Assembly: GCA_002049455.2 (NCBI GenBank)
Contig: KV919179.1
Span: 1 to 54,968 of the forward strand
Direction: 5' to 3'
DNA length: 54,968 nucleotides
Source of the DNA: Porphyra umbilicalis
Lineage: Eukaryota; Rhodophyta; Bangiophyceae; Bangiales; Bangiaceae
Positions within the stretch are counted from its first letter, which is position 1; every line of letters begins with the position of its first letter. Made by a program: the position numbers and the translations under genes. Below are positions 10,176 to 50,385 of this stretch, in pieces. The notes under the pieces were generated by a model, which had not been told where the DNA came from, ran no database searches, and saw only the letters and a list, made by a program, of their open reading frames with translations.

Positions 10176-11780
10176 GTCTGTGGATGACGATGGAGTGTCG
10201 GTACCTGTTCTTTGAAGTTAGATGCGTGCCTGTTTTGATGGAGACGACTTTTGGAACACTCATCGTGCTGGTCACTTGTCCAGCTCCACACTCGCCCCCG
10301 GCACGACCGCCAGTGGCACGCCGCCGCCGCCGATTGCATCTGAGACCACGGTCAGCCTCCTCACACGCCGCAATCCTGGATCCTTGAGCGCATCTATGCC
10401 TTCACTTGGAGCCGCCAACACCTCGGCGACCTGCTCAGCACCCCCCCTCTCAATCCACTTGGATGCCAATCTGCGGCAGCCGACCGCCTCGGACAGGACA
10501 TCCAGCTGTACAAATCACCTCCCTGATAACCCAAATGAGGACAACATACCGCGGCTGAGTGACGCCGACACCACGACCTGGTGACTCACGTATCATTGGA
10601 CATAGACCACTAACAACGTCTGGGCGCCACCAACTGAAGCCGACACTATCAGCTGTTCCAGTCTGTCCATTGAAAGAACAAGCCTCTGCGGTACAAGTAT
10701 CTCTTCAGTCTCTTACGCATGAGACGAGAACCTCACACCACCCCCTCGATGACACCACGACGCACTCTTATCACTTCCTGCCCTGTCTCACATGCCCACT
10801 CCACGACTGCCACGGCCGCCCTGTCGCCGACGACAACCGCCGACACGACTCACAGCTCCACCGCGCACACCGCCTCAACGTCTGCCATGGCCACCTGACC
10901 GGCCTCGTCCAGGGGCGATACCAAAGCTAGGCGCCACGCGCATATAGACACCACGACCGCGCTACGCACCCGTGTAGCACGATCACCGGCATTTTCTCAG
11001 CCGTGCGTCCCTGACCTCACAGGGAATTCCGTCAGACATCTCTCGAAAACGACCACAAACGCCACGCTTACGCCGCCGATCACCGCTCGAGAAACGAGCT
11101 TTCCTGGTCGACCTACACATACGACATGTCCTATCAAGTCGAGTTTCTGGTTGAGGATGATGTTCAGGTCACAGAGCGGCGCAAGCAGTCAGCGTAAGCG
11201 AGACCCGCCGGTCCCGCGTCATCATACAACAGGAGCTCTCTGCCCATGACCACGACGGCAGTCTCATCTCCCCCGGCCACCGACGACTCAGCCATCAGCC
11301 CGGGAGCGCACCGCCCCGCCACTACCTCCTACCCGACCTTTCCGCCGCCGAGCTCCGCCGACAGGACCTCCAGACCCGCCACACGCACACCAACCACTAC
11401 AGCGGACCCCGCCTCGACGCCTCCGAGCAACGCAGCCAGGACCTCCAGCTGCGTCTCACAACCCTCAACCAAGACAGCGGACACTGCCTTTCCGCCGCAC
11501 CCCCCACCACTGGTCGGCGGGCTACGCCGACGACGAGTTGGCGCCCGCAGGCGTCCGTCGCACCGCCGACAACGTGCGTACCCGCCATGACCTCGCTGCG
11601 CGATCAGGGCGGACGCCTGCGCGGCAAAAAGACACGTACGCACGGGAGAGCGAGCGACGCGCCGCTGCGGGGCGTCGCAGGGGAAACTTCACCCCATTCC
11701 CGAAAGAATGAAAAGTGCTTTCACGACAGGACCCAAGACACGTGGCCACATCCGCGCCTCCCCATCTTTACCGCCACGCC
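10176..11780. other. Non-coding stretch between hAT transposase and satellite
   Basis: Pyrimidine-rich, CCAC/CGAC-rich DNA with many Ser/Thr/Pro-rich open frames that begin and end at random. No motif is recognised. CTCACAACCCTC at about 11455 resembles a hAT right end (CAACCCTA) but lacks the final A, and I could not match a duplication. Confidence 0.4.
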
Positions 11781-11859
11781 CACAGCTGCACCACGTCGCG
11801 ACCGCTGCCTCTCGCACCGCCTCCACCACGGACATCGCTCTTGCAAAGCGCCGCACATG

Positions 11860-14800: not shown

Positions 14801-15060
14801 CCGCCGTGCCGCCGCCTTGACGCCGCGGCGCCGCCGCGCGGCCGAGCCGCCACCACGCCGCCGCCGCCGGCCTTGTGCGCGGCGGCGGCGGCGGCGGCGC
14901 GGCGACGATCGTGCCGCTGCCGGCGCGGCGACGGCAGCCGCGTGTTGGGTGCGGCGGCAGGGCGGGTTTCTCCAGCACCCGCCCCGCCGCCGCGGCCCCA
15001 ACCAAGACGCCCCCCCCCCCACGACCGCGCCAACGCCCGCACCGCGCCGTCGCGCCGTCG
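11860..15060 (+). repeat. GC-rich satellite block of about 250-bp monomers (block 1)
   Basis: Nine monomers can be recognised from the conserved core GTGTTGGGTGCGGCGGCGGG (variants GTATTGGGTG, GTGTTGAGTG) followed by CTCCAGCACCCGCCCCGCC. The cores start near 12001, 12252, 12506, 13235, 13487, 13740, 14470, 14695 and 14942. Each unit also has ACCTTGTGCGCGCCGGCGG before the core and a C-run with ACCGCACCAACACCCCC after it. The many open frames across it are by-products of the CCG/CGG content. Two identical AT-richer inserts split the block (see the higher-order duplication). Confidence 0.9.
12000..14520 (+). repeat. 1,234-bp tandem higher-order duplication inside satellite block 1
   Basis: Copy 1 is about 12000-13233 and copy 2 about 13234-14520, offset by 1,234 bp throughout. 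Each copy holds three satellite monomers plus a 500-bp non-satellite insert (about 12570-13083 and 13804-14317). The insert begins GCCCGACGCTACGACGCCCA and ends just before CACCCCCCCAGCGCC. The inserts look identical by eye, so the duplication is recent. Confidence 0.9.
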
Positions 15061-32193: not shown

Positions 32194-33820
32194 CTATCGC
32201 TCAAACGCGGTCGGGGCCCGATGCGTTTGTGCCCCCGCCGCCTCCCCCCCCCCCCCCTGCCTCGCTGGGGACGGAAACCGGAACAGGCGGTGCACGTTGT
32301 CGCCAAGGACAAACGGCCAGAAGTCGTCGGCCAAGTCGTCCGCCCCCCCCCGGTAGGCGCGGCACGCCGCCTTGACGGCGAGAACGTAGCTCGCCCGGAA
32401 GTGGAGGCGGTAGCCGGTCGTCGCGCCGACCGCCGACGCCCACCAGGCCGTCTCGACAAACGACGGGTCGACGACCAGCCGCCCCGAGCGGTCGAGGAGC
32501 ACCTCCACCCCGACGTGGTGGTAGCCGAGCAACCGCGGCTGCCGCACGACCGGGTCGGCGGCGAGGACCACCCGCCAATGCGTCGCGACGGTCGCGTCGT
32601 AGCGCAACGCAAAGGCCGAGTTGCCGACACGCGGCGCGCCAAAGGTCGTCACCGCCACGTCCTCGGCAGACCCGAGGCCGAGCTGCCGCCAGTGGCGCGC
32701 CGCCTCGTACGACGCGAGCGTTGCGAGGGAGCCCCCCATCGAGTGGCCCGTGAAAAAGATGGGCTTGCCGCGGCCGCGGCCGCGCCACCTGCTGGCGTTG
32801 TACGCGGTGCGGGCGTTGGGGGGTGACGGTGTCGACGGGCGGCCGCGACTGCCGTCGCCGCCAGAGCGGCTGCCCGCGCTGCTGCTGCTGTCATTGGCGC
32901 CATAGCTGCTATCGTCGCTGCTGCTGCCGTCTCCAGAGGATGTGCTGGCCGGGCTCCACCCGCCGCCGCGGCCGGCGGGCGCCCACTCCTCCCCGCTGCC
33001 ATCCTCATCGACGGGGGCGTCAGAGTCCTCATCGCTGACCCCGGCGCCGCTGCCGTTGCCGCCCCCGCGGCGGCGGCGGCGGTCACGCGTCCCCCTCGCC
33101 GACGGCGACAGGACTGGTGGCAGGTACAGGTTGGCAATCGCCGACAGCACGTCGGGCCGCAGCTGCTTGTATACCCGCCCGTGGCCGCCGTGCACGGACG
33201 CCTGCCCGAGCGTCATCACGTCCTTGGCAAACGCCGCGAGGCCGCCACTAGACGCGGGGGGAGGCAAATCGTCGGTCGCCGCCTTGCCAGACGCGGCGAT
33301 TGCGTCGCCCAGAAAGGTCGACGGCGACGCGCCAATGTCGCGGACCGGGCGCCCGACAACTGCGATGCTGCCATAGTCAGACGCGTCGAGCGTGGCCGCC
33401 GCCGCGCTGTTGGTAAATGCCGCCGCGCCGCCGCTGGTAGATGCCACCGTCATTGTGGCCGCCACGGTGGCGCCCGCGTCGGTAGAGGACCCCCCGGCGC
33501 GACCACCACGATCGGTGTATAGGCTCCGGTCCAGCGGCAGCTCGTCCGAAAAGAGGTCGTCAAAGGGCGTTGCGGACACCTCCAGGTTGGCCGCCCAGTT
33601 GGTCACATCGCGAGTGCCCGAAAAGGTGACGACCACCCGGTCGGCCGAGACGAGCACGAGCGCGTGCGCCGACAGCGCGGGAGCCGTGATGTAGCGGACG
33701 ACCGAGTAGCCGCGGGAGGCAGCGAGCGCAAACGGGTCGATACGGAGGCCGTCAGCCGACGTAAAGCCGTTTGGGGCCACGCCACCTGCCGCGGCGGCGG
33801 CAGCCGCCCCCTCCCCACCC

Positions 33821-33859
<39 letters not shown>

Positions 33860-36800
33860 CCGCCCCCCGACGATGATGCCACTAGAAGAGTCGTCGCCGC
33901 CCCCACGCGGGGCGGAGGGAAAAACCCGGCGGCGCCGGACCCCACCTCGGGCGACGCGACCGACGATGGGGCACCCGCGGTCGGCACCAGCGGGCGTCGG
34001 CCCCACGTGTCGAGCGACGGCGACGACATGCGCGACGCCGTGTGCGCGGTCGCCGAGAGCGGGCGGCGGCCCCAGGGGTCGGCGCCGCCGCTGCCACTGT
34101 CGCCGGCCAGCGTCGGCGCAAAGACCGACGCGCGGGACCACGAGTGTGGCTGGGAGGCGGTTTGGCGCGCGCCAAAGAACCCGCCGTCGCCGCTGCCGCC
34201 ACCGCCGCCGCCGTCCGCGTGCAGCATGGAGAGTGGGGGAATGGGTTGCCGTCGCGGCGGTACTGCAAAGGGCGCCGACGCGCCAACGGCGCCCGCGCCA
34301 GAGCTGCCGCCACCGCTGACGCCGCTGGCACCCGCCAACAACATGTCGTGGCGCTCCTGCTCCAGGAGCGCCGCCAGCTCGTCGGCCCCCCCGCTGGCAA
34401 CCGACGTTGGCGTCGGCCGCCGTGGCGGCCGACGCGGCGGCGGCGGAGGCCGCACCAGCTCCTCCCGCGCATTGCCCGGGATGTACGCCAAGTACGCGCA
34501 GTTGACCATGAGGACGACCGTCTGCATGACAAGCACATTCTTCTTCATGCCGAGACGAAAGTAGGCACCCTGGTCAGGGTCCGCGTCGAGGAGGGTGCGC
34601 TCAAAGCGGGCGCGCGCGTGGCGGTGCCGCCGCCACACGCGGTCCACACGGCGGGGGCCGACCGGCACCTGCTGCAGGCCCCGCTCGTCGGGCGCACCCG
34701 GCCCGCCACCGCCGACGCCATCCATCCCCCCCCCGCCGTCGAGGGCGACCCCGCCAAGGTAGTCCCCAAACGACCCCGTCGACGCCGCCGCCCCCGACGT
34801 GTAAGTGTTGACCATGGACGAAGCGGGCGGAGGCGGGTGGAAGTCGCGCTCCCGGCGGGCCCGCCGCCGCCCCCGCCGTCGCCGGTGAGCGCGGTCGCCT
34901 GACCGGCGGGGCAGCTTCCGGCGCCCGTCGCCACCGTCGCCGCCATCGCGGGCATCGCCGCCGCCGCCGCCGCCATGGTCATCGTCGCCGCTGCTATCGC
35001 TGTCGGTGGCGGCGGCCACGCGCCCCCACTTGCGCGCGCCGCGGAGGTTGTCTGGCCGCGCAACGCCGCCGACCACGGGGCCGCCGCGGAGGCTCCCGTT
35101 GAGCACCCGCCACTCGCGGTGGCGATAGCGGAGGGGCATGTCACGGCCCCAGGGGATCCCCTTGCCGGTCGTCGTCAACGCCGATGACGGCAGGCGCACG
35201 CGGCGGCGCCGCCCGCCGCCGCGCCGCCGGTCGTCGGTCACCAACGGCGCGCGCTCTGGGTCGTTGTCGGCCGCTGCCGGCGCGTGGCCGCTGGAAAAGA
35301 CGCGGTGGATGGCGGTGAAGAAGACGCGCGCGAGGCTCCGCTCCATCAGCAGCGGCACCCGCCCGCTGGCCGACAGCGACGGCGCGAGCGGCGCCGGCGA
35401 CGCCGGTGACCTCCCCGACGCGCCGGCAGCGGCGGCGGCGGCGGCTTCCGCTTCCGCCTCGGCCGCCGCCGCCGACGCCGACTCCACGTCCCGCCACAGC
35501 CCCGCCGGCAGGTTGACATACGCCGCGAGGGTGATGCTCGTCAAGTAGACAGCGGCGATGCCGAGGTTGGCCACCGGCGGCACCAGCGACGCGTCGGCGA
35601 GCGACGGCGGCGGCGGGCGGGCGGTGAGGACGAGCACCTCAATCGGCAGCCGCGCAATCGTCAAGAGGCGGAGGCCAATCATGGCCGTCGCGCACGCGGG
35701 CGTTTGGTAGGCAAAACAGCGAAAGCCGAGCTGCTTGGTCCGCGTCTCGGCGTAGGGTTGGGAGGCGAGCGCGACGCTCGTCGCGCGCATGGCGGAAAAC
35801 ATGGAGATGGCAATGACCACGTCGAGGGCGACGGCCGCAATCGCGGCGCCGCCGACGAGCGGCGGGAGCTCCCCGACGCGCGCCAACCGAAACACCGACA
35901 GGGCGCGCGCAAAGGGCACAAAGCCGAGCGACACGCCCGCGGCGGCGGCCAGCACGCCCTTGATCAAAAAGACAAACACGACGGCCGCCACTTTGGGCGC
36001 GTAGAAGCGGGCGCGCTCGAGCTGGGAGCCGGGCCTCAACAGCAGCCGGTACGAGTGGGAGGCGGAGAGGAGGTAAAAGGTCACCGACGCCGTGTACACA
36101 GCGTCGGTGAGGATGCGCAGCAGCCCTCCCGCGGAGAGGGGCGGGAAGAGCGCCGCTGCCGCCGGCCACGCCGGCATCAGCAGCGACCGCAAGGCCGCCA
36201 CCGCGTCCGCCACGGGTCGGAATTCGGCAATCGGCGCCACCGCCGCCGCCGTCGGCAGGTCGCCCGGCAGCGCCGCGAGCGTCATGGGGCTCGTGCACAG
36301 GAGGCCCGCGCCGACCAGCACCGCCGTCCACACCTGCTCCTCGGTGCGCTCCGCGCGGGGGATCGCCGCGAGGGCGAGGAGGAAGAGCGCGGCGACGCCC
36401 ACGCCCGCCACATTGATGCCGACGGCGGCCGCGTGGGAGAGAAGCGACGGCGCCAGCGCGGCCGCCACGTCCGCCGGCGACGCGCCAGCGGGGCGGTGCG
36501 CCCACGCCATCGACGCGCGCCCCGTGGCGGCGAGGGTGTAGACGAGGCCCGCGAGGAGCGTCACGTACAGGGCGCCAATGCTCACATTGACCTCCCCCGC
36601 GGTCATGACTTCGAGGCGCAGCTTGGCCGCATTGTCGTCAAAGCCCCCCGGCGCGGGCATCATGCTCGGGTGGCGGGTGAGGGGGCCCCCGTCGCCGCCC
36701 GTGGAGAAAAAGCTCTCCCCGGCCTCCCCATAGCCGCCGCCGCCCCGCGACGGGGAGGCGCCGGGCGACGCGTGGCTATCCTCCTCCGCGTCCGTGCCGA

Positions 36801-37272
36801 AAAAGGAGCGGATGCGGGCGAGGTCCGCCCGCAGCCCGGCAAAGCGCTCCTGCAACGACGCGGAGAGGGAGGAGGACCGGTGCGCAGACGTGCCGACGCC
36901 GGGCGCGAGGCCCGTCAGGTGGCTGCTGCTGTCGGCGCTGCTGCCGCCGTCGACGGCGCTCGACGGGAGGCTGCGGTCCCCATCCCCGCCGCCGCCGCCG
37001 CCGCCGCCGCTGGGCGAGCCCGCCCCACCGAGGGACGCCCACGACGCCGGCGACCGGTGGCCACCACTGCCGTGGACCCGTGTGTGGTCACCCCGGTCGT
37101 CCCAGCCGCCGCCGCCCGCGTCTTGGCCGCCCCCCCGCGGGCGGCGGTCGCCGCCAATGGCCACGGGCGGGGTGGCAATATGGCCGGCGCTGCAGCCCCG
37201 CGGCGGCCGCGGCGGCGGCGGCGTGGCGGGAGGCGCCCCGTCCCCCGCCTCCAGCGCCGCCCCCGGGTCCAT
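32194..37272 (-). CDS. Multi-pass membrane class-3 lipase, diacylglycerol-lipase-like
   Basis: 1,692 residues from ATG 37272 (MDPGAALEAGDG). Residues 1-220 are Gly/Ser/Pro-rich and disordered. About 224-590 holds roughly eight hydrophobic helices (for example IGALYVTLLAGLVYTLAA). A long disordered stretch follows, then another hydrophobic helix near 907-935. The Lipase_3 domain is at about 1180-1640: VVTFSGTRDVTNWAANLEV, the nucleophile elbow TGHSMGG with Ser1511, Asp1573 in LAADPVV, and His1585/1586 in GYHHVG. TM helices before a Lipase_3 domain are the layout of sn1-specific diacylglycerol lipases, though those have four helices and are shorter. Gly/Ser inserts split the catalytic domain. 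Substrate is inferred. It is a single exon; the KDZ transposon ends 0.67 kb upstream of its start. Confidence 0.85.
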
Positions 37273-37945
37273 GCGCCGCGCGCCGGCGGCTGCCCGCGGG
37301 GACCGGCCAGACGCCGACGCTGCCGCCACCGCCGCCGGCAGGGCACAGGCACCCGGCGCCACGGGTGCCGTTACGCGTCCGCCTCTCCCCCAACGCCAGA
37401 CGCTTCGTCTCCTCTCCCCGCTGGGTGTCCCCCGCCCCAAGTCCTCCCCAGGCAGGCCGCCAGCGGCGGGGCGCGCCCCGCGGTCGCGGTGCGGACGGGC
37501 CGTAGCGGGCCAGACGCCGACCCAGCACCGACGCCCGCCGTCAATGCATGCCTTGCGACGCCGCCCGTGGGGGGGGGGAGGGGCGCCCGCGGGAAGCCGC
37601 CGACCGAACCTGGTCACGGCGGGCGGGGGGGTAGAGGGTGCGAAACAACGCAGGTAGCAGCCGCCGCAGTGGCGTGGGAGGACGGAGGGATCGGCACCCG
37701 GCCCACCACGATCCGTTGGCGGCGCGGCGGCAGCCGCGGGCGGCGGCCGACCAGACCCACCCGACCAGGAGGACCCCTTTCGCAGTTCCTTTGGTCGGAT
37801 GCGCCTGGTTCTCTAGCGACGATGAGAGCTGCGTCCGGCCGGGCCTCCGGCCCGGCCCGGGCACGCCGGGCCGGGCCAGGGTCCCAGCCAGATGGTGGCG
37901 GATGAGCACAAATCTGGGTCCGTGGGGTTTCTGGGTCTCCGACAG
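37273..37945. other. Lipase upstream region up to the transposon end
   Basis: The 673 bp before the lipase ATG should contain its promoter and 5' UTR. GGGCCTCCGGCCCGGCCC at about 37842-37859 is a strong GC hairpin. No separate gene is seen. Confidence 0.4.
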
Positions 37946-38588
37946 ATCAGGACAGTCGACTGCAGTCCCGCTCTCTTGGGCGCCACCGTCGCCGATCGGC
38001 ACCCCTCTGCACCCCTCCCCCACGGCGGGGGATCTGGGCGGTCGCCCACACGTGTGCCCGCCCGCACCACCCGCCACCCCTCTGCACCCCCCCCACGGGG
38101 GGGAAATCTGGGCGGTCGCGCACCCATCCGCCCGCCCGCACCGACCGCCACCCCTCTGCACCCCCCCCCACGGGGGGGGATCTGGGCGGTCGCGCACCCA
38201 TCCGCCCGCCCGCACCGACCGCCACCCCTCTGTACCCCCCCCCACGCGGGGGGATCTGGGCGGTCGCCCACCCGTCCGCCCGCCCGCGCCCGCCGCCGTC
38301 GTCGGCCCCGTCGTCGTCGTCCGCGCCGCCGCCGTCGGCGGTGCTCCGCCCCCGCCGGCACGTCCGCCGGCACCGCCGCTGCCGCCGCGCTGCACGGCGG
38401 TCGCCCCCGCTCTCCCCGCCCCCCACACGCCGTCGACCGCCGTGCTGCGTGCGTGGGTCCGCGGGGGTGCTCGGCCACCGTCGGCGCTCCTCCATCCCCG
38501 CCGGCACGCCCACCGGCGCGCCTACCGGCACAACGGTCGGCTCCCCCCGCCGCATCGAGGTCGCTCCCCCTCCCCCCGCCCCACCGCC
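37946..38588 (+). repeat. Left terminal inverted repeat of the KDZ element
   Basis: About 643 bp. It includes four subterminal tandem units of about 74 bp, each with GATCTGGGCGGTCGCSCACC and CACCCCTCTGCACCCC, at about 38030, 38104, 38178 and 38251. A GTCGTC-rich part and a GCCGGCACG-rich part follow. Confidence 0.9.
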
Positions 38589-38722
38589 CCGTCGGCTCCG
38601 CGAGTTGCGTGCACACCGTTGCCGTTGCCGCCGGTTGTCCATGTGCCCTTGTGGTTTGCGACGCTCGGCGGCTCTCCCCGCCTCTCCGTTTGCGACGGGC
38701 GCTGCCGCTCTGCATTGGTCGC

Positions 38723-41614
38723 ATGGCGCCGGTCCCCCAGTCGACTTTGCGGGCTACTAGGCTGCGGGCGCTATTACGCGTGCTGCTGGGTGTTTCCTCG
38801 CTCCCTTCCGACGTCGATGGACTTGTTAGCGTGCTCGTTCAGACCTTGGTCGACCTGGAGGAGCGGTGCCCGTCGCTATGCTGTCACTTCCACCTGTCGG
38901 GCGTATCCAAGGCGACGGGCAAGGCGTTTTTCGTCGTCCTGTACGACGCGGCGCTCTCGGCGCACGAGGACGCCAAGCGTGTGATCCAAACGGTCTACAC
39001 CCACATTCACTCCGAGCTGTCGATGACAACTACCTCCGGACTTTTTCGGCGGTCGTTGCGTGAGAGGGGCTGTGTACCTGCGGCCCCCCGGGAGGACGAG
39101 GACCGCTCTACGGCGCACGGTGACGGTGATTCCTTGGTGGCGAGCGCCTTCGCTGATGCTACCGCCGACGTCGCACCGCGGGGTTCTACGGAAGACGCGG
39201 TCCAACAAGCTCTCGCCTTCGATCCAGAAGGAGACGCGGCTGGTGCTCCTCCCCCTGCCGCCGACGCTCCTCTACCTGCCCCCGGTGCTCGTCCCCATGC
39301 CGCTGATGCTCCTCCCGCCGCCGCCGTGGGTCTGTCGCCTCCCGTGCTCGAGCCAACCTTTGCTTTTTTCAAGCGGCCGGACATCCACTTTCCCAGTGAA
39401 GCCGGCATCTGGGTCATGGAGGCGCTCTTCACAGCTGTTCAAAAGGGCTGGGTCGGTCCCGTCCGCGAGACGGTCACCGTGGCGCGCAACGCGTTGCTCC
39501 ACAAGTACGGCGTGTCGTGCCGAGCATTCATCCAAGGCAAGCTGCCATGGTGGCCGGTCGATATGGGCAACACGAGGGCATCGGCGGACGTCGGTGGCAC
39601 CGTGAGGTGCATGCACTTCCCGTTCCCTGTCGCCGTGCAGCGACGGCACCTGCCGACGGGCGAGCGGACGCGGGACGTGGACAACGTCGAGGAGGCGATG
39701 GTCACCCTGGTGGAGATTGGCACTTCCAAGACGCCCGACTTCAACCTGGTCGTGGCGGTGCTGCTTCTACTCTTTGACAAGGAGCGTGGTGTCAGGGTTG
39801 CCATCTGTGACCGTCTTGCAATGCTCGGCGTCAAGCTGGACCCGTCCGTTTTCTCCGTGTCGTCAGAGGCCGTGGCGGGCTTGACAATTAACGATCACCG
39901 CTTGACGGACGGCTTCGGGTTGGCCCCCGGCACGCCCCGCACACCTTCCACGGCGTCGACACCGCCGTACCGGTCCCCCACCGGGTCCCCTAGCCCCGCC
40001 AATGGCGCGCCGGGCGCCGACATGTCTACTCTGGCCGCTGCGCGCATGGCCGCTCGTCGTGCAGCCGGTGCCGCCGGAAGAGAGGCTGCTGCCGCTGATC
40101 GCCTCGCCAAGGCACAGGCGGCGGCCGCTCGTGCGTCGCTCAAGAGGAGCGCCGACGCAACCGCGCAGCCCTCTGCTAAGAAGCCGAAAGGTCAAGCACG
40201 TCGGAGCGCGGTGGATCTGGAGCTGCCGATACTCGACGCATCGGAGGACGTGGTGTGCTTGCCACTACACGCCGAGGCGGCGCTGTTGGCGGACCACACC
40301 TTTTTTTCGCTGGCCACCAACTGGTGCCCTCCCGTCGTGTTTGTCGTCGACGACGAGATTGTGATTGAGACGGTGGCGGTGAGCGACTGGTCGGCCTTCA
40401 CCAAGTCGCAAACGCTCTTTGAGTGTGTGCTTGACGACAAGGTCGCGCGCTCGGCGCGAAAGCAGCTGATGGAGAAGGCGGCGGCAATGAGGGTTGGCGG
40501 TGAGGTCGACGTCGACGACGAGTGCAAGATCACCGCAAAGTTCAAGGCGCTTGAGTCGGGCGACACGGTGCGTGTGTCCATGGCATCGCTCGTCGCCATG
40601 GGCGAGCTCCACCTGGCTGCTGAGCGGCTGCAGGCCCTCCGCGGCGTTGTCGCATGGGTACGGGAGGCGGCCGTCCTGTACAACTCACGGGTCTCTACCT
40701 TCTACGGGGTCAAGGAGTCGACGACCGGCGAGCTGGGCACGGAGGTGATGCAGGTCGTGCTCAAGAGCAACCCGAACGCGACGGTCTGGCGCACGGACGC
40801 TCAGCCGGAGGACGCGGCGGAGGAGGACGCGGGGCTGACGGCCAACCGGCTCGTCGCCAACCTCGGCGACGTCTGGATGTCGGACGACTTTCTGGCGGTC
40901 AACCAGACCATTCTTCGACGGTGGCTGAAGAAAAACAAGCCAACGTCGTACGCCTTGCCGTGCTCCTTCTTCGTTTCCTTGCTGCAGCCGCCGCGGGGCC
41001 CCACCCACGCCGCTGCCGTAGCGGCCGCCGTTGACGCGGCCGCCCAAAAGGCCTTCCGGTTGGCGGGCATTGTCGAGCAGCTGGCCGGCGTATGCAACAT
41101 TGACAACTCGCACTGGGTCGCCTTTGCCGTCCACCTGCCGAGCAAGACGGTGACGCTGTACGACTCGGGACAGCACTTTGCAACGCTGCGTCCTGATGTT
41201 GCCGAGGCGGTGGTGCGCGTCAAGGCTATGGGCAAGCGGTTGCGCGTGCTCTTTGACGAGGCGGCGATGAGCAAGTCGATTGAGGAGGCGAGGGTGGCTG
41301 GGTCGGTGGGGGGCGAGGGCGAGGGCGAGCAAGACAAGGGGGCAAAGAAAAGCTGGTCGCACAAAAAAATCAAGGCTCCTTCGCAGACCGACTCAACCAG
41401 CTGTGGGGCGTACGCTTTCTCCTTTGTTTGGCACACTTTACGTGAGGAGAAGTCGAAGGTGCAGGCGGGAGATGCGAGTGCCGTGCGTCTAGAAATGGCT
41501 GCCAGCCTTGTGCGTGACGGGGTTGCCCAGCAGGAGGCCCGGGAGGAGCGTGCAGCACGGGCTGCCGCTGACCGGTCGTTTGCTTTAGGCGGCGCCGACG
41601 CCATGGAGAGCTAA
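38723..41614 (+). CDS. Ulp1/SENP-type (C48) cysteine peptidase of the KDZ element
   Basis: 963 residues from ATG 38723; the frame is open upstream through the inverted repeat only because stops are rare there. The C-terminal peptidase domain (about 690-930) has His797 in DNSHWVAFAV, Asp814 in LYDSGQ, Gln888 in PSQTDS and Cys894 in STSCGAYAF, the full SUMO/Ulp1 set. A likely nuclear signal KKPKGQARR lies near 490. The N-terminal half, with FFKRPDIHFPSEAGIWVM and LPWWPVDMGNTRASAD, matches nothing I know and may bind DNA or the transposase. Ulp1 partners are common in KDZ, MULE and CACTA elements; they may remove SUMO or ubiquitin-like marks from element proteins or host chromatin. It converges with the transposase gene. 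Confidence 0.9.
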   Translation: MAPVPQSTLRATRLRALLRVLLGVSSLPSDVDGLVSVLVQTLVDLEERCPSLCCHFHLSGVSKATGKAFFVVLYDAALSAHEDAKRVIQTVYTHIHSELSMTTTSGLFRRSLRERGCVPAAPREDEDRSTAHGDGDSLVASAFADATADVAPRGSTEDAVQQALAFDPEGDAAGAPPPAADAPLPAPGARPHAADAPPAAAVGLSPPVLEPTFAFFKRPDIHFPSEAGIWVMEALFTAVQKGWVGPVRETVTVARNALLHKYGVSCRAFIQGKLPWWPVDMGNTRASADVGGTVRCMHFPFPVAVQRRHLPTGERTRDVDNVEEAMVTLVEIGTSKTPDFNLVVAVLLLLFDKERGVRVAICDRLAMLGVKLDPSVFSVSSEAVAGLTINDHRLTDGFGLAPGTPRTPSTASTPPYRSPTGSPSPANGAPGADMSTLAAARMAARRAAGAAGREAAAADRLAKAQAAAARASLKRSADATAQPSAKKPKGQARRSAVDLELPILDASEDVVCLPLHAEAALLADHTFFSLATNWCPPVVFVVDDEIVIETVAVSDWSAFTKSQTLFECVLDDKVARSARKQLMEKAAAMRVGGEVDVDDECKITAKFKALESGDTVRVSMASLVAMGELHLAAERLQALRGVVAWVREAAVLYNSRVSTFYGVKESTTGELGTEVMQVVLKSNPNATVWRTDAQPEDAAEEDAGLTANRLVANLGDVWMSDDFLAVNQTILRRWLKKNKPTSYALPCSFFVSLLQPPRGPTHAAAVAAAVDAAAQKAFRLAGIVEQLAGVCNIDNSHWVAFAVHLPSKTVTLYDSGQHFATLRPDVAEAVVRVKAMGKRLRVLFDEAAMSKSIEEARVAGSVGGEGEGEQDKGAKKSWSHKKIKAPSQTDSTSCGAYAFSFVWHTLREEKSKVQAGDASAVRLEMAASLVRDGVAQQEAREERAARAAADRSFALGGADAMES

Positions 41615-44146
41615 CAGTAAACCACACTGCTCGAATACACTTCCTGCACACTCGCGCAAAGAGACAAAGAGAGCAGGCCAGCTCGCAGTGACGCCAGCAC
41701 GGCGCCCACCCCCTGGCGGCGCGGGCTGATGGTACAGCCCCCGTCGCTGCCCATTGCCGCTATCGCCGTCGCAATCAGTCCCGCACGGACCAATTGCCCA
41801 TCCCCCCCCCCATCCACCCCAGCCGCTGCCGCACGTGAGGAACACAACGGCAGAGATAGCGGCCACGCCGGCGGCGGCATTGGGGCGCTGCTGCGGTGGA
41901 GAAACTGCAGTGGCGGCACTCCAGTGGGGAGGGATATGGACACAACGGCCATGGCAACACTCGATTGTCGTAAAGTACCAACCCAAACCAAATCGAAAAC
42001 GATGCGTCTTCTACTTTCGAGAGACCCAAATGAGATCCGTAAACGCTCGACGGGCCCCGTGTCAGGCAGCTGCACAGCGCCCATCCGACAACATGAATAC
42101 AGAACGAGAGAATACCAGTTTGTCAACCGACACAACGACCGACATCCTTTCGGAAAATATACCCGTACAGAAGAATCGCGAAAGAGACGACATATGGCAG
42201 CGAAATGGAGTGGCAGATCCAATGCACCGTCCATGCTCACATGCGGCCGTTTTAACAAGGCGGAATCGTGGCCCAAATCCGGTGGATCAGGCGATGTGGG
42301 CGCGAGCCGCCTCTGCTCAACAGCTGTGCTTTCGCATCGTATTACGTGAAAATATTATTAAAACTGAAGCTTCTGTAACAGAGTCATATCTAATCCATAT
42401 CTAAACCATATAAAATGTCAAAAATCATATTTGAATCGGACATTCTTCACGGTGTCCGCGTTGGAAAGGGTGCTGAGGGGGGTCGCGGTTCGGGAGCTTG
42501 TCAATTACGGTGTGTATTTGATAAATTCGTCTGGCGAAAGTTCAGTCATTGATGCTCACCATTTGCACGCCCAAGAGGCGGCAAGCATGACTCGTGTTGG
42601 GCGGTGCTGGACCCGCCCGTGTTGGTCTGTTGGGCGTTCCCACAACGGCGGCTTGCTGCTGTGTGGGGCCGCTCCTCGCCGGCTATGCACCCGCCGCTCT
42701 GGCTGCGCTCCCTGGCTGCGCAGCCGGACCGCGCTTGTCCCGCCCGCATTGCTCGCACGAGACGACCACAGTGCCGCTGCTCCAGGCGCCGTCAATGGTC
42801 CTGCTCCCGCGGGCTGCTGGCTGTGTCCCGGCGGAGCGGCTGGCCCCCGCACCCAGGGGACCACTGTGGCACGCCGTAGGATGACCATGAGATCCGCCAC
42901 ATGCGGCCCCTACCAACTCTCTTTGACAACAGACGCTGGGGCTTCGGCGGGAAAGGCTTTGTGTGGAATCTGTAGAGTAAATGGATGGGAGGCGGCCGGT
43001 TTTCTTTCTATGGTAGACTGGTGTGGTGTCCGTCTGGCGATAGGGACTGGATGGGACGCTGGGGCAGGTGGGGGGGGCTGCTACTCGTGTATGTCATGCC
43101 AAGTGCCACGCATAGAAGCAATACAGTCGAATGTGCGCTTGCCCATCTGTGGTGAGCTTCGCAGCGCAGTTCTTCCCCCTCGGTGCGGGTTAGAAAGAAA
43201 GTGGCGTCTTCCATACTGTCTGAAAGGGTCACTGAGACACCCGGCCTGAACCTGTCCGGTAAAAGGCGTTCCCTCGTCTCCCTTTTGGTACCCCTTTCTG
43301 CGCAATCCAGCGCGCCACGAGCAGCCGTGGTATGGCACAGTGATTTATGGGGAGGAACCGAAGCGCAGGGGCGGTGGAGCTCACCAGAGTGAAAGTGGCG
43401 AGCGGCTGTGGGGGGGTTGTGGTTGGGAGACAACCGCCAGAGTGGACGCGGTCCATATGTTGGCCCGGGAAACAGGTAACGGCCGTGGGACGGTGCATGG
43501 CAATGTATGATGGCAGTGGCTACGGGTGGTAGTACTCAGCGGGCATCCAACACGTGAGCAGGGGAGGGCCGCGCCCTGGTTTGGCCTGGCTGCCCGTAGT
43601 CACCAGTCTTTCGATATGCGTAAGTGGCGCCATCAGTAGGGCAGAGCACGTCCTGGGTGCGGTGCGAGGCGGCGACGACGAGAGTATCGGGCAGTTTGTG
43701 GTGAAGCGGCGGCGACGGCTGCTCCCGCAGCCGCTGTCACGCGATGGGCCGTATTGCCCTCCCCCCCCGCCCCACTCAATCTTTTTGTCCAGTGGCGGCC
43801 CTACTGGCACTGAACAGCATGGCTGCCATCGTCGCCGCTGTGAGCAGCGGCGTTGCTGCGTCGAGAGGGGCGGGGAAGCGGTCCAGTTGGGGCTGGTGGC
43901 GGCGGTGCAATGCCCAGCTGGCAGCGACGGCGGCCGCAGCGGCTACAACAGCGACGCCGGCCGCACGGACGCGCACGCCCGGCTGTTGTCACCAACAGAG
44001 GCTACCGTTGACTTTCTGCAAAGGGATGTATACTAGTGGGGAGCCTGCTGATTCTTCTAAGGGCAACGGACGCGGGCCAGGTATCGACGGGTACAGTGAA
44101 GCTGTCGATGGTACCATAGAGGAGAGGATGTGACAAGGAAACAGGT
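41615..44146. other. Transposon interior between the two convergent genes
   Basis: 2.5 kb without a supported gene. An AT-rich patch at 42340-42440 (ATATTATTAAAACTG and neighbours) stands out in the GC-rich element and resembles the AT-rich DNA near 15790-15960. The remaining open frames are short and motif-free. It may carry both 3' UTRs and nested debris. Confidence 0.5.
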
Positions 44147-47100
44147 TTACTGACGACATGCACACACCACACGCTCGCACTGAGACACCAAGTGAGAATG
44201 GAAAAAGGACGGCAGGGGGCGATGACGCACGTCTGACTTGCCTATTGTACGTCGGTACAAGATGAGCAGGTTGTTGATGGCCCCAATCAACCGCATTTGG
44301 ACGACGAAGCGGTCTTGCCCCAAGTAGGTTAGGTGCGACTTCAGCGGCTTGTTGAGTGAATGGCGGTTTTCGGCCGCCGACGTCTTGTGGAGGCCCGACC
44401 GCTCGGGGTAGTTGTTGGCATCAAACAAGGGAGAGCACTTGTGAGCGACCGCGTGGAAGCGGTCGAGCGCCCACGACGTCTCGGACAGCCGCACAAGCCA
44501 CGGCATTCGGCGGGTAGCATTGCGGGAGGACTGACAGGCGGTGTCAAAATACACCGTCTTGGGCAAGCGGGGGAAGCGCGCCGCCAAGGCAGCCACGATG
44601 CCCGCCGGGCTCTCGGCGGTTTCGAGGACCTCGAACCCGATGAGCACCCCGCACGGGCAGAGGTAAGACACGACGCCAGGCGTGAAGACATTGTGGGTGA
44701 TGAAGGCGTGCCGGCAGTCGTCGTCGCCCAAGCCGCCGTTCTCCATATCCGCCCGTTTGCGCTTCGTCTTCTTGGTGGGGTTGGTCTGCTTCTCCTTGTC
44801 ACGGGCGGCGCGCGCCGCCGCCGCCGCCACGTTGTCCGTCGGGTGCGGGCGCACTTGGTCCAAGTCGGGCATGACCACGCCCGACCTGATCTCAGCAGCT
44901 TGGTCGTCTGCCCTGCCGGCCGACGCCGCCTTGGACACGAGGCCAGATGGCAAACGCGGCTCTGCCGGCGCCGGCTGGCGCAGCTGCCACTCCTTGAACT
45001 TGGCCGCGTCGGTATCGGTCCAGTCCGCCTCGAAGCGGAGCGCCTCGGCGTTCATACGACAGCGCCACAGGGCCTCCATGTGGAGGTCCGTGTGCACCGC
45101 AAACAGGATCAGCTCGCCCATCGCACGGGAGAGCTCCACGTCGTCGTCCATGCTGTCGGCCAGCAGGTCGAGCGCCGGCCAAACGACGTGCAGCGACTGG
45201 ATGCCCGTGGTGTTCTCGTTCCACTGCTCCTGCTTCTTGCCGTCAATCAACGCTTGGCTGAGCTCCGTCAGCTCGTCTACGTTGCACCCCGAAAAAATGC
45301 CGATGACCGGCTCGGCAACGAAGGTCGAAAAAAAATCAAATAGGATGCACCACCGCTCCCGACGCACAATCGGCAGCACGTCATCCCCTCCAATGGCCTC
45401 GGGGATTACCTTACAAAAGCGAAAGCCGGCCGTGCTCTGCACCGCTCCATTCGCGTCATCCGCCACGCCCCCACCTCGCAGCGTTGGCTTAAATGTTGAC
45501 GACGTGTTATTGATGGCAGGGGGGGGGACGGACGGCGAGAGCAAAGCCTTGGGGGGCGGCGGCGACCCCGGTGGAGACCTCGAGGCGTCCGTCAGCTCCT
45601 CGTCATCGTTCCCGCCTTGCGCCTCGGCAGTGGTGGCGAAAAAAGAGCACCAGAAGATGCTGGCCGCCCACGAGCCGGCCTTCTTGCGGTGCTCCGCGTC
45701 GGTGTGGACGCCGAGAGCGGGTGCAACGTCGCTCAGCGACGCAAAGGTTGACAGCGCCTTTTGCTCGGCCTTGTTGAACGTCACCTCGGCTGAGTAGCCA
45801 GCCTTGAGGCGCTGCCGCACGCACAACCGCACCTTGGGGTCGAACGCGGCGCACGCGTCGTTGATTGAGATAGGAATTGTCGGCACGTTGATTGTGTCCT
45901 TCTCAAACGGGAACGATGCCTCTCGGAAGATGCCGATGGTCTGGCCGTCGGCGACGACCGCCGCGTACGGCGTCTCGCTGCAGTGGTAGCAGTCGACGCA
46001 CCGGTACAACGACCGCGGCACGATGAGGGTGCGCGAGTATTGGTCGGTCGCGTACGACAACTCCTGCCGCGTTTGCGTCGAGTCGTTGGCGTGGACCGCC
46101 CCGCTGCAGTGGAGGTTGAAGGCCGAGACCGCCGTCGCCGCCGAGATGCTGCTCTTGGTGGAGATAATCGTAAACAGGATGACATCGAGGAGCGTGCGCG
46201 TGTAGATCGTCTCGGCGTTGTAGGCAAACAGCCCGTAGTCTGAGCCGTCGAACCGGACAATCTCGGCGCACTCCTTGTCTGGGCACAGCCACTGTCGGGT
46301 GCGGATCTTGGTCGGCCCGCTCAGCGTGTACAGGTCGCCGAGGACGGCCGGTCCCAGGACGCCCGCCGCCGTACCGCACTTGTGACACTTCGACTCGTAT
46401 AGATCCTCACCCACGTCCGCCGGCAGCGGGGTCCCACGCGCGACGCCGTCCCAGACGAGGCAAACACGTGTCTCCGACGCACACGGCAGCAGGTTGCGTG
46501 CCCGTCGCCGGTAGTCTGTGTCCAGATAGACACGCTCTTGGCCCTTTTTCTTGGCCGCGTGAGCAGCTGGGCGCCGCCGCCGTGGAGCAGTGGAAGCAGC
46601 CGGCGGCGGGGCCGTCCGTGCCTCACCTTCAGCGCCACCGTTCTGGTCGCTGTTCTCGCTCGCAGCGCCGCCGTCGTCGTCGCCTTTGTTTTCCGCTCCC
46701 TCTTTGGCCGGGTTGTTGAAGCCGCCGTAGCCGCCAATCGGTGGCTTGACGGCAAAAGAGTGAAGGCAGCGACTGTTCCGCGTCCTACACGGCACGTGCT
46801 GGCACACGGGCCGGGTCTTGCGCGTGCGCGCCCCAGGCGTGTGCACGATGCACCAGATGTGGTTGTACCCGACCACATGGATCGCCGCGCCGTCGGGGAG
46901 CGGCTGCATCATGAAGGTGTCGACGTGCAGCGCGTTGACCGAGAAGTTGTCGATGGCGGGATAGAGCCTCAGCAAGGCCCGGGTGGTGCTACAAAGAAAA
47001 TGCTTGACGGCTTGCTGCAGCGCCTGAGAATAGGCCTCGGCGTGCATGCACGTAGAGGACTTGCTCGATCGGACGCGCGCACCGACGTTCTCGTCCTTGC

Positions 47101-47638
47101 TCGCCGTCCCACACGAGCAAAACGTGCAGACGCTCGTCTTGGTGGCCGCCGCCCAAACCACGTAAGGGGCCTCGGTGGCGCTCCGCACAAACACGGCCCG
47201 TCCCCCGGGCACCGGCACGATGACCGGGCCCTTGCGTCCCATCAGCTCGACGTCCGGCAGCACCAGGTCGAGCCCGACAAGTAGAGCATCCAGCAGCTGG
47301 CACGAAAGGGCAGCAACGAATGCCGCCCGCCCCTCCACGTCGAACGCCTGTTGCGCTGCGCCCACCCCCCGCGACCGAGCCCGGGAAGCGCCCGATGGAA
47401 GCGGGTCGGGAGAAGCTGCCCGAGTACCGTCGGGACCGCGCGTCCCTACCATCGGCTCGGCGCGCACGTTCAAGCCCGCGCCACGGTGCTGCAGCAGAGC
47501 TTGCAACAGCTCCGCTGGCGGGTAGAACCCAAGCGCCTCCGCGCCGAGAGCCGCAAAGTACGGCACGTCGACGCCCTCCCCATCCTGTGCCTCCCCACAA
47601 ACCGCGTCAAGATCCTCCACGCAGCAAGCCTCCCCCAT
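44147..47638 (-). CDS. KDZ-type DDE transposase with SWIM and cysteine-cluster zinc domains
   Basis: 1,163 residues from ATG 47638. The frame begins 11 codons earlier at a TTG, and no in-frame ATG precedes it. Near 160-210 is a SWIM-type finger, CTFCSCG...STCMHAEAY. A second Cys cluster (PVCQHVPCRTRN, SRCLHSF) and further pairs (KCHKCG, CPDKECAEI, RCVDCYHC) follow. The catalytic core reads VADGQTIGIF with Asp564, YFDTACQSSRN with Asp1032, DRFHAVAHKCSPLFD, and SAAENRHSLNK with Glu1090. These are the D, D, FHAxxHxxxC and E blocks of Kyakuja/Dileera/Zisupton transposases. The triad assignment is inference from spacing. No stop or frameshift is present, so it could be active. Confidence 0.88.
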   Translation of the reverse strand: MGEACCVEDLDAVCGEAQDGEGVDVPYFAALGAEALGFYPPAELLQALLQHRGAGLNVRAEPMVGTRGPDGTRAASPDPLPSGASRARSRGVGAAQQAFDVEGRAAFVAALSCQLLDALLVGLDLVLPDVELMGRKGPVIVPVPGGRAVFVRSATEAPYVVWAAATKTSVCTFCSCGTASKDENVGARVRSSKSSTCMHAEAYSQALQQAVKHFLCSTTRALLRLYPAIDNFSVNALHVDTFMMQPLPDGAAIHVVGYNHIWCIVHTPGARTRKTRPVCQHVPCRTRNSRCLHSFAVKPPIGGYGGFNNPAKEGAENKGDDDGGAASENSDQNGGAEGEARTAPPPAASTAPRRRRPAAHAAKKKGQERVYLDTDYRRRARNLLPCASETRVCLVWDGVARGTPLPADVGEDLYESKCHKCGTAAGVLGPAVLGDLYTLSGPTKIRTRQWLCPDKECAEIVRFDGSDYGLFAYNAETIYTRTLLDVILFTIISTKSSISAATAVSAFNLHCSGAVHANDSTQTRQELSYATDQYSRTLIVPRSLYRCVDCYHCSETPYAAVVADGQTIGIFREASFPFEKDTINVPTIPISINDACAAFDPKVRLCVRQRLKAGYSAEVTFNKAEQKALSTFASLSDVAPALGVHTDAEHRKKAGSWAASIFWCSFFATTAEAQGGNDDEELTDASRSPPGSPPPPKALLSPSVPPPAINNTSSTFKPTLRGGGVADDANGAVQSTAGFRFCKVIPEAIGGDDVLPIVRRERWCILFDFFSTFVAEPVIGIFSGCNVDELTELSQALIDGKKQEQWNENTTGIQSLHVVWPALDLLADSMDDDVELSRAMGELILFAVHTDLHMEALWRCRMNAEALRFEADWTDTDAAKFKEWQLRQPAPAEPRLPSGLVSKAASAGRADDQAAEIRSGVVMPDLDQVRPHPTDNVAAAAARAARDKEKQTNPTKKTKRKRADMENGGLGDDDCRHAFITHNVFTPGVVSYLCPCGVLIGFEVLETAESPAGIVAALAARFPRLPKTVYFDTACQSSRNATRRMPWLVRLSETSWALDRFHAVAHKCSPLFDANNYPERSGLHKTSAAENRHSLNKPLKSHLTYLGQDRFVVQMRLIGAINNLLILYRRTIGKSDVRHRPLPSFFHSHLVSQCERVVCACRQ

Positions 47639-47831
47639 GGCAAGCCGTCCATCCACAAAAACTCCCTCCAATGCTCCACATGCACACGAACGCAGCCGTT
47701 GCGAGAGGGGAAGAGCCGAGAAGGTGGGTGGGTGGGGGGGCGAGCAGGGATGGGTGACTAAAAAAGAGATGCAGCAACAGAAATGCCATCACCGATTACC
47801 GGCACGGTCCCGGCGCGCCGGCAAATGGCGC
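47639..47831. promoter_or_regulatory. Upstream region of the KDZ transposase gene
   Basis: Between the transposase start and the right inverted repeat. It must contain the gene's promoter, or share the inverted repeat as promoter. GTGGGTGGGTGGGG at about 47722-47736 is the only notable tract. Confidence 0.4.
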
Positions 47832-48481
47832 GGTGCCGGGGGGGGAAGGGGGCGCGACCGCGGTGCGGCGGGGGGAGCCGGCCGTGCTGCCGGTAGGCGC
47901 GCCGGTGGGCGTGCCGGCGGGGATGGAGGAGCGCCGACGGTGGCCGAGCACCCCCGCGGACCCACGCACGCAGCACGGCGGTCGACGGCGTGTGGGGGGC
48001 GGGGAGAGCGGGGGCGACCGCCGTGCAGCGCGGCGGCAGCGGCGGTGCCGGCGGACGTGCCGGCGGGGGCGGAGCACCGCCGACGGCGGCGGCGCGGACG
48101 ACGACGACGGGGCCGACGACGGCGGCGGGCGCGGGCGGGCGGACGGGTGGGCGACCGCCCAGATCCCCCCGCGTGGGGGGGGGTGCAGAGGGGTGGCGGT
48201 TGGTGCGGGCGTGCAGACGGGTGGGCGACCGCCCAGATCCCCCCCCGTGGGGGGGGGTGCAGAGGGGTGGCGGTCGGTGCGGGCGCGGGCGGATGGGTGC
48301 GCGACCGCCCAGATCCCCCCCCGGCGGGGGGGGTGCAGAGGGGTGGCGGTTGGTGCGGGCGGGCAGACGGGTGGGCGACCGCCCAGATTCCCCCCCTTGG
48401 GGCGTGCGGGGGGGGTGCAGAGGGGTGCCGATCGGCGACGGTGGCGCCCAAAAGAGCCGGACTGCAGCCGACTGTCCTGAT
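47832..48481 (-). repeat. Right terminal inverted repeat of the KDZ element
   Basis: Mirror of 37946-38588. It holds four matching subterminal units, GCGACCGCCCAGATCCCCCC, at about 48160, 48227, 48300 and 48377, with slightly different spacings because of C-run length changes. Confidence 0.9.
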
Positions 48482-50385
48482 CGGCGGGGCGCCGCAGGCG
48501 CTAAAATCGAAGGGTGTAGGCGCGCGGTCATTGGTCAGAATACTGAACACGCGACAGGACGCAGAACCGCCACCCCACGATATCCTTGTAGTATCTCAGT
48601 GGATTGATTGGAGAGTGACCCTGAAGCGGCCTGTGGCGGGGAGCCGACAGCCGGGCCAAGCTCGTATCCGTAATAAACCATGCGGCCAGGGTCCGCTTGG
48701 GACTGCCCTGTAGGCACCTGTAGCGACTGTGGGCCCCGCGCAATATGGCGGCGGCCCTGCCCAATATTGTGGCGGCCGCGGTGAAATCGCAGGGGGGAGA
48801 TACGGGCCGGGCATGCGGCAGATCGGGATGCACGTGGGCCCGCCACTGTCGATGGTCGGATGCGGTGCTGTAAGGAAGCCGCGCTGGGTGACCACGGCGC
48901 TGTACTGTCGGCGCATTCGACCAAAGGAACTGCGAAAGGGGTCTGACATCCTCGACCCACCCGCCACAGTTGCGGTGGGTCTGACCACGACCGGCCGTGC
49001 ACAGAGATTCTGCGTGCAGCTGCAGCAGTGGTGGGGGTGCCGGCTCCGTCTCGTTTCCCTCCTGCTGGGTGAGAGATTCCGAGTGTCACCGCGCTCGGCG
49101 GGATGTGCCACCGACACCGTCTTGCGAGACGATTGGTTCCTCCATAGTCTTACAGTAAGCAGTACAAATACTTTGTGCAATTATGTGTTGATCGTATTTT
49201 GGGCAGCAACCGGCCAGCGCGCGTCGCTGGTGCAACATGTCAGTCGATGGCCTCCAATTGGTCATGCTCCCAAGCCTTGCGCCTTCCTCGCAGGGAACCA
49301 ATGGGTCTGGGGGCCATCGGCCTGCCCCTGAGGCCGACCCCACCGCAGCCGTTTTGCACGGTTGGGCACGTGTCTGCCCGCAAGTCTGCCGCAGCCGCCG
49401 CGAGGCGCGGCACACGTCGCCGCACGGTTCTGACGGCGCCGCCTCGTGGGGAGGCTCGTCGCTGCCGGCCACGGTCTCGGGCGGTGGCGCCCCGCTCGCG
49501 CGGCCGTACACGGCACGTCTCGTCCGTAGCCCGAGGTCGAACCGGCTGTCATTCCAGAAAGCGCGTCGGCGCGGACGGGTCTGCCGCTTGCACCCCTTCC
49601 GCCGCGCCTCCGCCTCCCCAGCTCCCCGATGGGTGGCTTCCATGAACACAGGGGCGCCACGTGAGTGGCCGCTGACGGGGGGATAGGCCATCCCCGTTGC
49701 CGCGCATTGTGTGTACACAAAGAATTATTTGGCACCCACTCTGCGGGTGCTGCCTCGACCACCGAACGCCGTCGCTCCTGCTGGGCAGCGACGCTGCGGG
49801 CGGCCCGCCCGATCTTGGTGGGAGGAGCCGGCCGCCGGTCCCAGGGGCAGTGCCTCTGCTTGAAAGCGGCTGTCGCCGCGCGGTGCGCTGATCCGCCGCC
49901 ATCCCCCGCCGTCGGCTAACAGTGGTGGCGACCGCTCGTTGCCGCAACGCCGACCGCCGTGACAGTTGCATGGCGGCTCACGGGGGTACACCTTCCATTT
50001 GTCTGCATGGCAGTGGGGCGGCGGCGCCAGCGAGGCCAGAGCCGTGCGTGTGCACCGCAGAGGGGGTCTACGCAGACGGGTCTGCCCGCGTTGCACGACG
50101 GCGGCGGCGGTGCTCTGAGCGGGGCGGCGGTGGCGCTCGGGATGCCTTTTAGGCGCGCCGACCCGATGGCCATGTCGGGCCTCAATCGCCGCACTCCCCA
50201 TCGATTCCTGACCTCGACTACAAGGAGCCACTCATTGCAGTGCCTTCCGACCTGTACGTTAGAGCGCCGCCGTCGTCACTGCCGTCGTCGCCGCCAAGTT
50301 CAACGCCTGTTGCCTCGCCTTTACCCGGCTACTGCACCACCTATCCTTCGCCCGTACCAGCACCCGCCTTACTCAGACGACAACC
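48482..50385. other. Non-coding stretch right of the KDZ element
   Basis: No supported gene. Near 48734-48780 two copies of a GCAATATGGCGGCGGCC-like unit occur (GCGCAATATGGCGG, CCCAATATTGTGGCGG). A hairpin GGCACCCACTCTGCGGGTGC is at 49731-49750. CT-rich DNA precedes the start of the next gene. Confidence 0.45.

Follow-up and report, generated by a model that had tools for sequence, protein, structure and literature searches.

A probable autonomous KDZ-superfamily DNA transposon with a convergent C48 peptidase gene in the red alga Porphyra umbilicalis

KDZ transposons are little studied, and the locus described here raises two questions: where exactly does such an element begin and end, and what is an Ulp1-type peptidase doing beside its transposase? 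The stretch of DNA analyzed, hereafter the window (54,968 nucleotides), is contig C419 of the Porphyra umbilicalis genome (83.8 Mb, 665 contigs). An earlier note, made from the letters of this stretch alone, had proposed an apparently intact KDZ (Kyakuja/Dileera/Zisupton) transposon of 10.5 kb in what looked like a red-algal genome, and the host is indeed a bangiophyte red alga. The best explanation of the locus is, with high confidence, an autonomous DNA transposon, and its assignment to the KDZ superfamily, with ends at 37762 and 48953, is very probable. The element has discrete ends and 8-bp target duplications, near-identical copies of it exist elsewhere in the genome, the catalytic residues are in place, the substitution pattern is that of purifying selection and a peptidase gene is a regular partner of the transposase. 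The coordinates of these features are collected in Table 1.

Table 1. Position of the element and of its parts in the window
Feature	Position	Strand	Basis or remark
Whole mobile element	37762..48953	.	Common stretch of three copies, unrelated flanks, 8-bp duplications
Left target-site duplication, GACCCACC	37754..37761	+	8-bp direct repeat
Right target-site duplication, GACCCACC	48954..48961	+	8-bp direct repeat
Left terminal inverted repeat (34 bp), starting 10 bp in from the element end	37772..37805	+	
Right terminal inverted repeat (34 bp), starting 10 bp in from the element end	48910..48943	-	
Left sub-terminal inverted repeat, 74-bp tandem units (array 37992-38287)	37945..38590	+	
Right sub-terminal inverted repeat, 74-bp tandem units (array 48131-48402)	47827..48482	-	
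Predicted C48 (Ulp1-type) peptidase gene, 963 aa	38723..41614	+	PF02902 E 5.1e-8
Peptidase active site	H797 41111-41113; D814 41162-41164; Q888 41384-41386; C894 41402-41404	+	
Spacer between the convergent genes	41615..44146	.	No convincing conservation with C117
Predicted KDZ transposase gene, 1,163 aa, CxC4 cluster	44147..47638	-	Open frame, profile and homology comparisons
Transposase catalytic candidates	D564 45947-45949; D1032 44543-44545; E1090 44369-44371	-	Counted from Met

The extent of the mobile unit was set by comparison with two further copies, C28 (11,187 bp) and C187 (11,188 bp), which are about 99.7% identical to the element of the window. The three sequences diverge exactly at its two ends, so that its size is 11,192 bp and not the 10.5 kb first proposed. 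The inverted repeats of about 640 bp that were thought to bound the smaller unit do exist: the suggested self-alignment of 37.9-38.6 kb against 47.8-48.5 kb gives two inverted arms, partly composed of 74-bp tandem units, that are 93.9% identical over 656 aligned columns. They are sub-terminal and do not form the boundaries of the element. The terminal inverted repeats match at 33 of 34 positions, and the target duplication that the note had proposed to look for is found, as a perfect 8-bp repeat, at the outer ends. Within each copy the two sub-terminal arms are about 6% apart; the copies are only 0.22-0.29% apart by substitutions.

The strong inversion of the long repeats, and their sharp limits at both sides, could suggest that the transposon is the inner stretch 37946-48481, with the flanking 183 and 471 bp belonging to the host or to an older element that it invaded. 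This is extremely improbable, given that the outer stretches are present in all three copies, that the target duplications sit at the outer ends, that no 8-bp duplication occurs at the inner-repeat boundaries (window sequence at about 37946 and 48481) and that the relative C117 has homologous outer ends without a long inner inverted repeat. No inner unit free of the outer stretches was found in the genome searches, one of which scored the best 40 of 135 candidates. The mobile unit retained here is the full 11.2-kb element.

The very ends of this element and of its relatives are poorly inverted or not inverted at all. At positions 11-44 the inverted matching amounts to 33/34 in the window, 26/34 in C117, 27/34 in C392 and 24/34 in C222; at positions 1-10 it is 1/10, 4/10, 5/10 and 7/10, respectively, and the outermost four positions show no match in the first three and two in C222. 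In all four families the right end, read inward, starts with GAGG, and the left end starts with C. Three diverged relatives with the same layout could be delimited: C117 (11,152 bp, duplication CCACCTTT), C392 (11,290 bp, duplication CTATTCCA, 31/38 inner positions matching) and C222 (11,797 bp, duplication GGGTGTCT, 27/38). The ends of the last two come from a scan in which the end regions of four further relatives were examined for an inverted repeat with an 8-bp duplication beside it; the same scan returned nothing for C31 and, for C4, only candidates inside G+C-rich inner repeats, its ends not being located. At the looser threshold of 24/38, C392 and C117 also give G+C-only candidates inside their arrays, and a single candidate, a palindrome, appears within the inner repeats of the window element. 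Mismatched pairings, in which the left region of one element was set against the right region of another, served as a control: 29 of the 30 gave none at 27/38 or more; the exception, C4 with C392, gave two matches at 27/38, one with a palindromic 8-mer and the other of G+C only. Perfect 8-bp duplications are thus present in six elements (window, C28, C187, C117, C392 and C222) of the eight loci with a convergent peptidase. When similar termini were sought near the transposase start of other KDZ loci, C117 alone was found, in a search insensitive enough to miss the ends of C392 and C222.

The tandem arrays of C117 lie at similar distances from its ends and are different in sequence. Because its transposase and its peptidase each change frame once, this copy may be broken or may bear an intron. 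C4 (loci L033 and L067) likewise has long inverted arms in sub-terminal position (99% over 697 bp), and the core of its transposase has an almost identical counterpart in the metagenome protein P0006.

The picture of a single copy gives way to one of three near-identical copies, five diverged relatives of the same layout and dozens of other KDZ-type loci. The window element differs from C28 and C187 by 25 and 33 substitutions and by 5 and 4 gap columns, respectively; the three pairwise comparisons give 25, 33 and 32 substitutions over 11,184-11,188 columns, with 4-7 gap columns. Each copy is enclosed by its own perfect 8-bp duplication (GACCCACC in the window, GTGGCCGT for C28, GGCCAGCG for C187), in flanks that are otherwise unrelated. 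The three copies demonstrate recent movement, as the earlier note had suspected; the statement concerns past movement of the family and not the present mobility of the window copy. Both frames, of 1,163 and 963 residues, are open in the window, as described. C28 has a single frameshift, in the peptidase, and C187 a single one, in the transposase; sequencing error is possible in both cases. The changes among the three copies are too few for a selection test, and most of these few are non-synonymous.

An identity of about 99.7% could also point to segmental duplications or redundant contigs, which would say nothing of recent movement. Such an origin is hardly credible and was rejected: identity stops at the limits of the element, where each copy has its own duplication, and no long shared flanks appear in the 14.8-14.9 kb stretches of C28 and C187. 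In addition, the right flank in the window matches only itself, and the left flank otherwise matches only short dispersed repeats. The genome search for further members, proposed in the earlier note, thus yielded two near-identical copies of a recently moving family, and the flank searches found no empty insertion site in the assembly.

Some features of the surrounding sequence can be mentioned here. To the left of the element, window 36930-37370 is a G+C-rich dispersed repeat with many short genome matches on both strands (68-94%, and 100% over some 25 bp). A stop-to-stop frame of 1,872 aa on the minus strand (window 32197-37812) crosses the left edge of the element; Lipase_3 is recognized at its residues 1685-1759 (E 5e-19), and the orientation of this lipase-like gene is away from the element. 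Very G+C-rich tandem arrays of about 252-bp and about 227-bp repeats occupy window 11847-14837.

The nature of the transposase had to be approached indirectly. The 1,163-aa minus-strand frame is present as announced, and the absence of a KDZ hit, which would have spoken against the proposal, is literally what the Pfam model gives: PF18758 (KDZ) fails to match the window protein, also when E is relaxed to 10. This objection is overturned by PF18758-positive homologues encoded in the same genome, where the model gives 34 matches at E <= 1, 19 above the cut-off and 15 below; of seven that were excised and rescanned, five are above the cut-off and two just below it as cut. In BLASTP, the alignments of the window transposase with L060 (2e-32; PF18758 35.8 bits) and with L065 (7e-36; PF18758 26.4 bits as cut and 28.0 in the genome search, for a cut-off of 26.6) span about 400 aa and take in the catalytic D and E. 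Comparison by hhalign of the window-family alignment (20 sequences) with the seven PF18758 proteins gives a probability of 100 and E 2.9e-41. On the basis of this homology, of the core alignment and of the profile-profile match, the window protein is, as far as sequence comparison tells, a divergent KDZ transposase. In the family as a whole, PF18758 matches 3 of the 20 aligned members at E <= 1, the best being P0014 (8e-5, 22.9 bits against a cut-off of 26.6). A PF18758 search of 14 control genomes, a weak control for eukaryotes, gave no match.

The residues proposed in the earlier note for the active site are conserved wherever the aligned members have letters there (20 aligned, window included): D564 in 20/20, D1032 in 18/18 and E1090 in 18/18. 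The CxC4 profile PF18717 scores 27.7 bits on the window protein (cut-off 26.9) and is found in 18/20 members at E <= 1, in many cases below the cut-off. As for the SWIM cluster of the earlier note, C/H residues of this kind at 173/175/196/198 (numbering without Met) are invariant in 20/20 aligned transposases; the Pfam SWIM model matches 1/20 members (E 0.0069). One relative, P0024, is a transcript-derived protein (64% over 39% of the query). With C117 as reference, dN/dS is 0.32 (730 codons) and 0.096 (427 codons) in two parts of the transposase, rough values obtained at a dS of about 1 and more, and these ratios point to purifying selection between the two elements.

hAT elements also make 8-bp duplications. 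Together with the failure of the Pfam KDZ model on the window protein, one could therefore think of another superfamily that resembles KDZ, namely a hAT, CACTA/EnSpm or Plavaka relative. This is very unlikely, considering that no other transposase family in Pfam is matched by the window protein or by the 19 relatives scanned, and that the homology to PF18758-positive proteins extends over the core with D and E aligned; hAT and CACTA identities were rejected on these grounds. The duplications of 2-3 bp that passages of PMC12730594 give for fungal Plavaka and EnSpm do not fit either. A sequence search of the PDB with the transposase and the peptidase gave 0 matches at E 1 and at E 10. A divergent member of the KDZ superfamily remains the reading adopted here.

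The second gene, convergent with the transposase, had been described as a C48 peptidase with H, D, Q and C all present, and this description holds. PF02902 matches its frame with 33.4 bits (cut-off 20.7), and the four residues are kept in 5/5 aligned members. Its dN/dS against C117 is 0.32 (831 codons) and 0.086 (81 codons, dS saturated); these values are again rough, with dS of about 1 and more, and count in-frame blocks only; the tail, whose frame is shifted in C117, is excluded. They place the peptidase, too, under purifying selection. A third gene in the spacer was considered and rejected, the best BLASTN match between the spacers of the window and C117 having an E of 0.059; of the many short frames none did better than a TBLASTN E of 2.6e-5 over 27 residues, an isolated match judged compositional.

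How general is this association in the genome? TBLASTN with the window transposase gives at least 47 matches, merged into at least 38 loci, which together with the 34 PF18758 loci (one shared) make at least 71 distinct KDZ-type loci; this is a lower bound, the best 40 of 584 first-look candidates having been scored, and 15 of the 34 PF18758 matches behind it lie below the cut-off. C48 peptidases are themselves numerous (131 PF02902 matches), and one lies within 8 kb of 46/71 KDZ-type loci, for a chance expectation of about 2.5% per locus. The nearest C48 is convergent and downstream at 8 loci, upstream on the same strand at 13 and downstream on the same strand at 25. None was found at the other 25, where absence is weak evidence: this class is defined by a single protein query together with PF02902, a model that on its own failed to pick up 4 of the 8 convergent peptidases. 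In 16 of the 25 downstream same-strand pairs the two matches have equal open-frame length and are in frame, and are apparently fused, as read from open-frame lengths (16 pairs) and from the matching frame (all 20 pairs checked), not from joined sequence. The convergent loci coincide exactly with the 8 whose identity to the window transposase reaches 55% or more along most of the protein. All 8 of these have a convergent C48, so the peptidase is a regular component of the subfamily to which the window element belongs. Used as a query, the window peptidase gives 21 matches. The 8 convergent loci account for 20 of them; the last, a weak one on C141 (E 1.7e-4), is not near any listed KDZ locus.

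Forty-three of the 131 C48 matches have a listed KDZ locus nearby. Other transposons, or KDZ loci that were not scored, may account for the remaining 88, several of which sit in open frames of some 1,000 aa or longer. Two KDZ-type loci, C295:88201-90615 and C303:85644-88058, have near-equal scores and the same length and strand; they may be recent copies or redundant contigs.

The distribution of these layouts was followed on a tree of 37 transposase cores, comprising 6 of the 8 convergent loci (C28 and C187 omitted), 3 of the 13 upstream, 3 of the 25 downstream same-strand (two in one open frame and one not, all labelled 'fused'), 14 of the 17 'none' loci of the transposase search, 4 of the 9 PF18758 'none' loci and 7 metagenome proteins whose layout is not known. 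The six convergent loci fall in one 12-row group with six of these metagenome proteins (100/99). The sampled rows of the upstream (3), downstream/fused (3) and PF18758-without-C48 (4) classes form one group each. The 'none' rows are not one group (3 changes), and C58, a long row, stands beside the convergent group; the software warned that long branches meet. Among the sampled rows, each C48 layout is thus confined to one group, and the position of the peptidase appears to shift by lineage.

It can be asked whether the peptidase is a mere passenger, without a role in transposition, as the 25 of 71 KDZ-type loci with no C48 found within 8 kb might indicate. This is unlikely: the gene is present in all 8 loci of the subfamily, its dN/dS against C117 is 0.32, its active-site residues are kept in 5/5 members, and C48 peptidases stand beside KDZ transposases in three layouts. 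It is tentatively proposed instead that the peptidase is a working part of red-algal KDZ transposition and that it was rearranged or regained at least twice, giving the C-terminal fusion, the upstream and the convergent arrangements. If so, movement or escape from silencing would require either that a SUMO-like modifier be controlled or that the transposase be cleaved.

A plausible mechanism can be outlined from the anatomy of the element. The minus-strand DDE transposase would most likely bind the sub-terminal arrays and the terminal repeats via its cysteine-rich N-terminal half, and would cut or copy the element out through D564, D1032 and E1090, presumably by cut-and-paste. The element would then be joined to a staggered 8-bp target by DDE strand transfer, the 8-bp duplications being what is observed of this step. 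The C48 peptidase probably strips SUMO or a similar modifier from its substrate, either the transposase or silencing proteins of the host; alternatively, it may process the transposase.

Elements of this superfamily are known from several lineages. Passages of PMC8226300 record both Zisupton and Kyakuja in green algae, PMC12477816 reports KDZ from brown algae, and PMC9297572, which cites fish, fungi and algae, describes Zisupton from nematodes. The literature search retrieved no Zisupton report for Porphyra, and earlier red-algal KDZ entries are possible, for example in Repbase. Among the papers covered, mostly without subscription papers, Ulp1 and KDZ as whole words were not found together, and the Ectocarpus paper alone combined Zisupton with 'red alga'. 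The only co-mention of Zisupton and Rhodophyta found is in a Repbase paper, in a passage that gives 1,181 Chondrus crispus families with superfamilies not specified there. The present locus provides exact ends, target duplications and the full two-gene anatomy of a red-algal KDZ family with recent copies. KDZ-type loci number in the dozens in its genome, where an Ulp1-type peptidase recurs beside the transposase in three lineage-specific arrangements. Why deSUMOylase-like enzymes are found on large DNA transposons becomes testable by clade comparison and by assay of one element.

The fish Zisupton, in the 2012 description attributed to Bohne, is said to be about 11 kb long and to have a C-terminal cysteine-peptidase domain; the peptidase of the window is a separate, convergent gene. 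Zisupton of fish, fungi and algae, as outlined in PMC12730594, resembles the window element by a KDZ transposase of more than 1,000 aa, a cysteine cluster, terminal inverted repeats and 8-bp duplications. It is described as multi-exonic in a passage of PMC9297572, whereas the window transposase is a single open frame; the platyfish Zisupton has CxC7 according to a passage of PMC12062965, and the window transposase CxC4. A further difference is that the outermost nucleotides of the window element are not inverted. In this last respect it resembles Kyakuja of fungi and green algae, which likewise has a KDZ transposase and outermost bases that are not inverted repeats. Two Laccaria Kyakuja families have 7-bp duplications, CA..TG ends and no inverted repeats in the account of PMC12730594; the window element has 8 bp and a repeat just inside its ends. 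The giant KDZ elements of Ectocarpus (up to 30.3 kb) and Chlamydomonas (31.7 kb, seen to move), treated in PMC12477816, are likewise large and algal, whereas the Porphyra elements measure 11-12 kb and are red algal; the Ectocarpus main text contains no word starting with 'Ulp1' or 'peptidase'. Finally, fungal KDZ elements (with Plavaka and others) that carry TET/JBP, as reported in PMC12730594, are likewise DNA transposons that bring along a gene for an accessory enzyme, the one of the window element being a C48 peptidase and not a dioxygenase.
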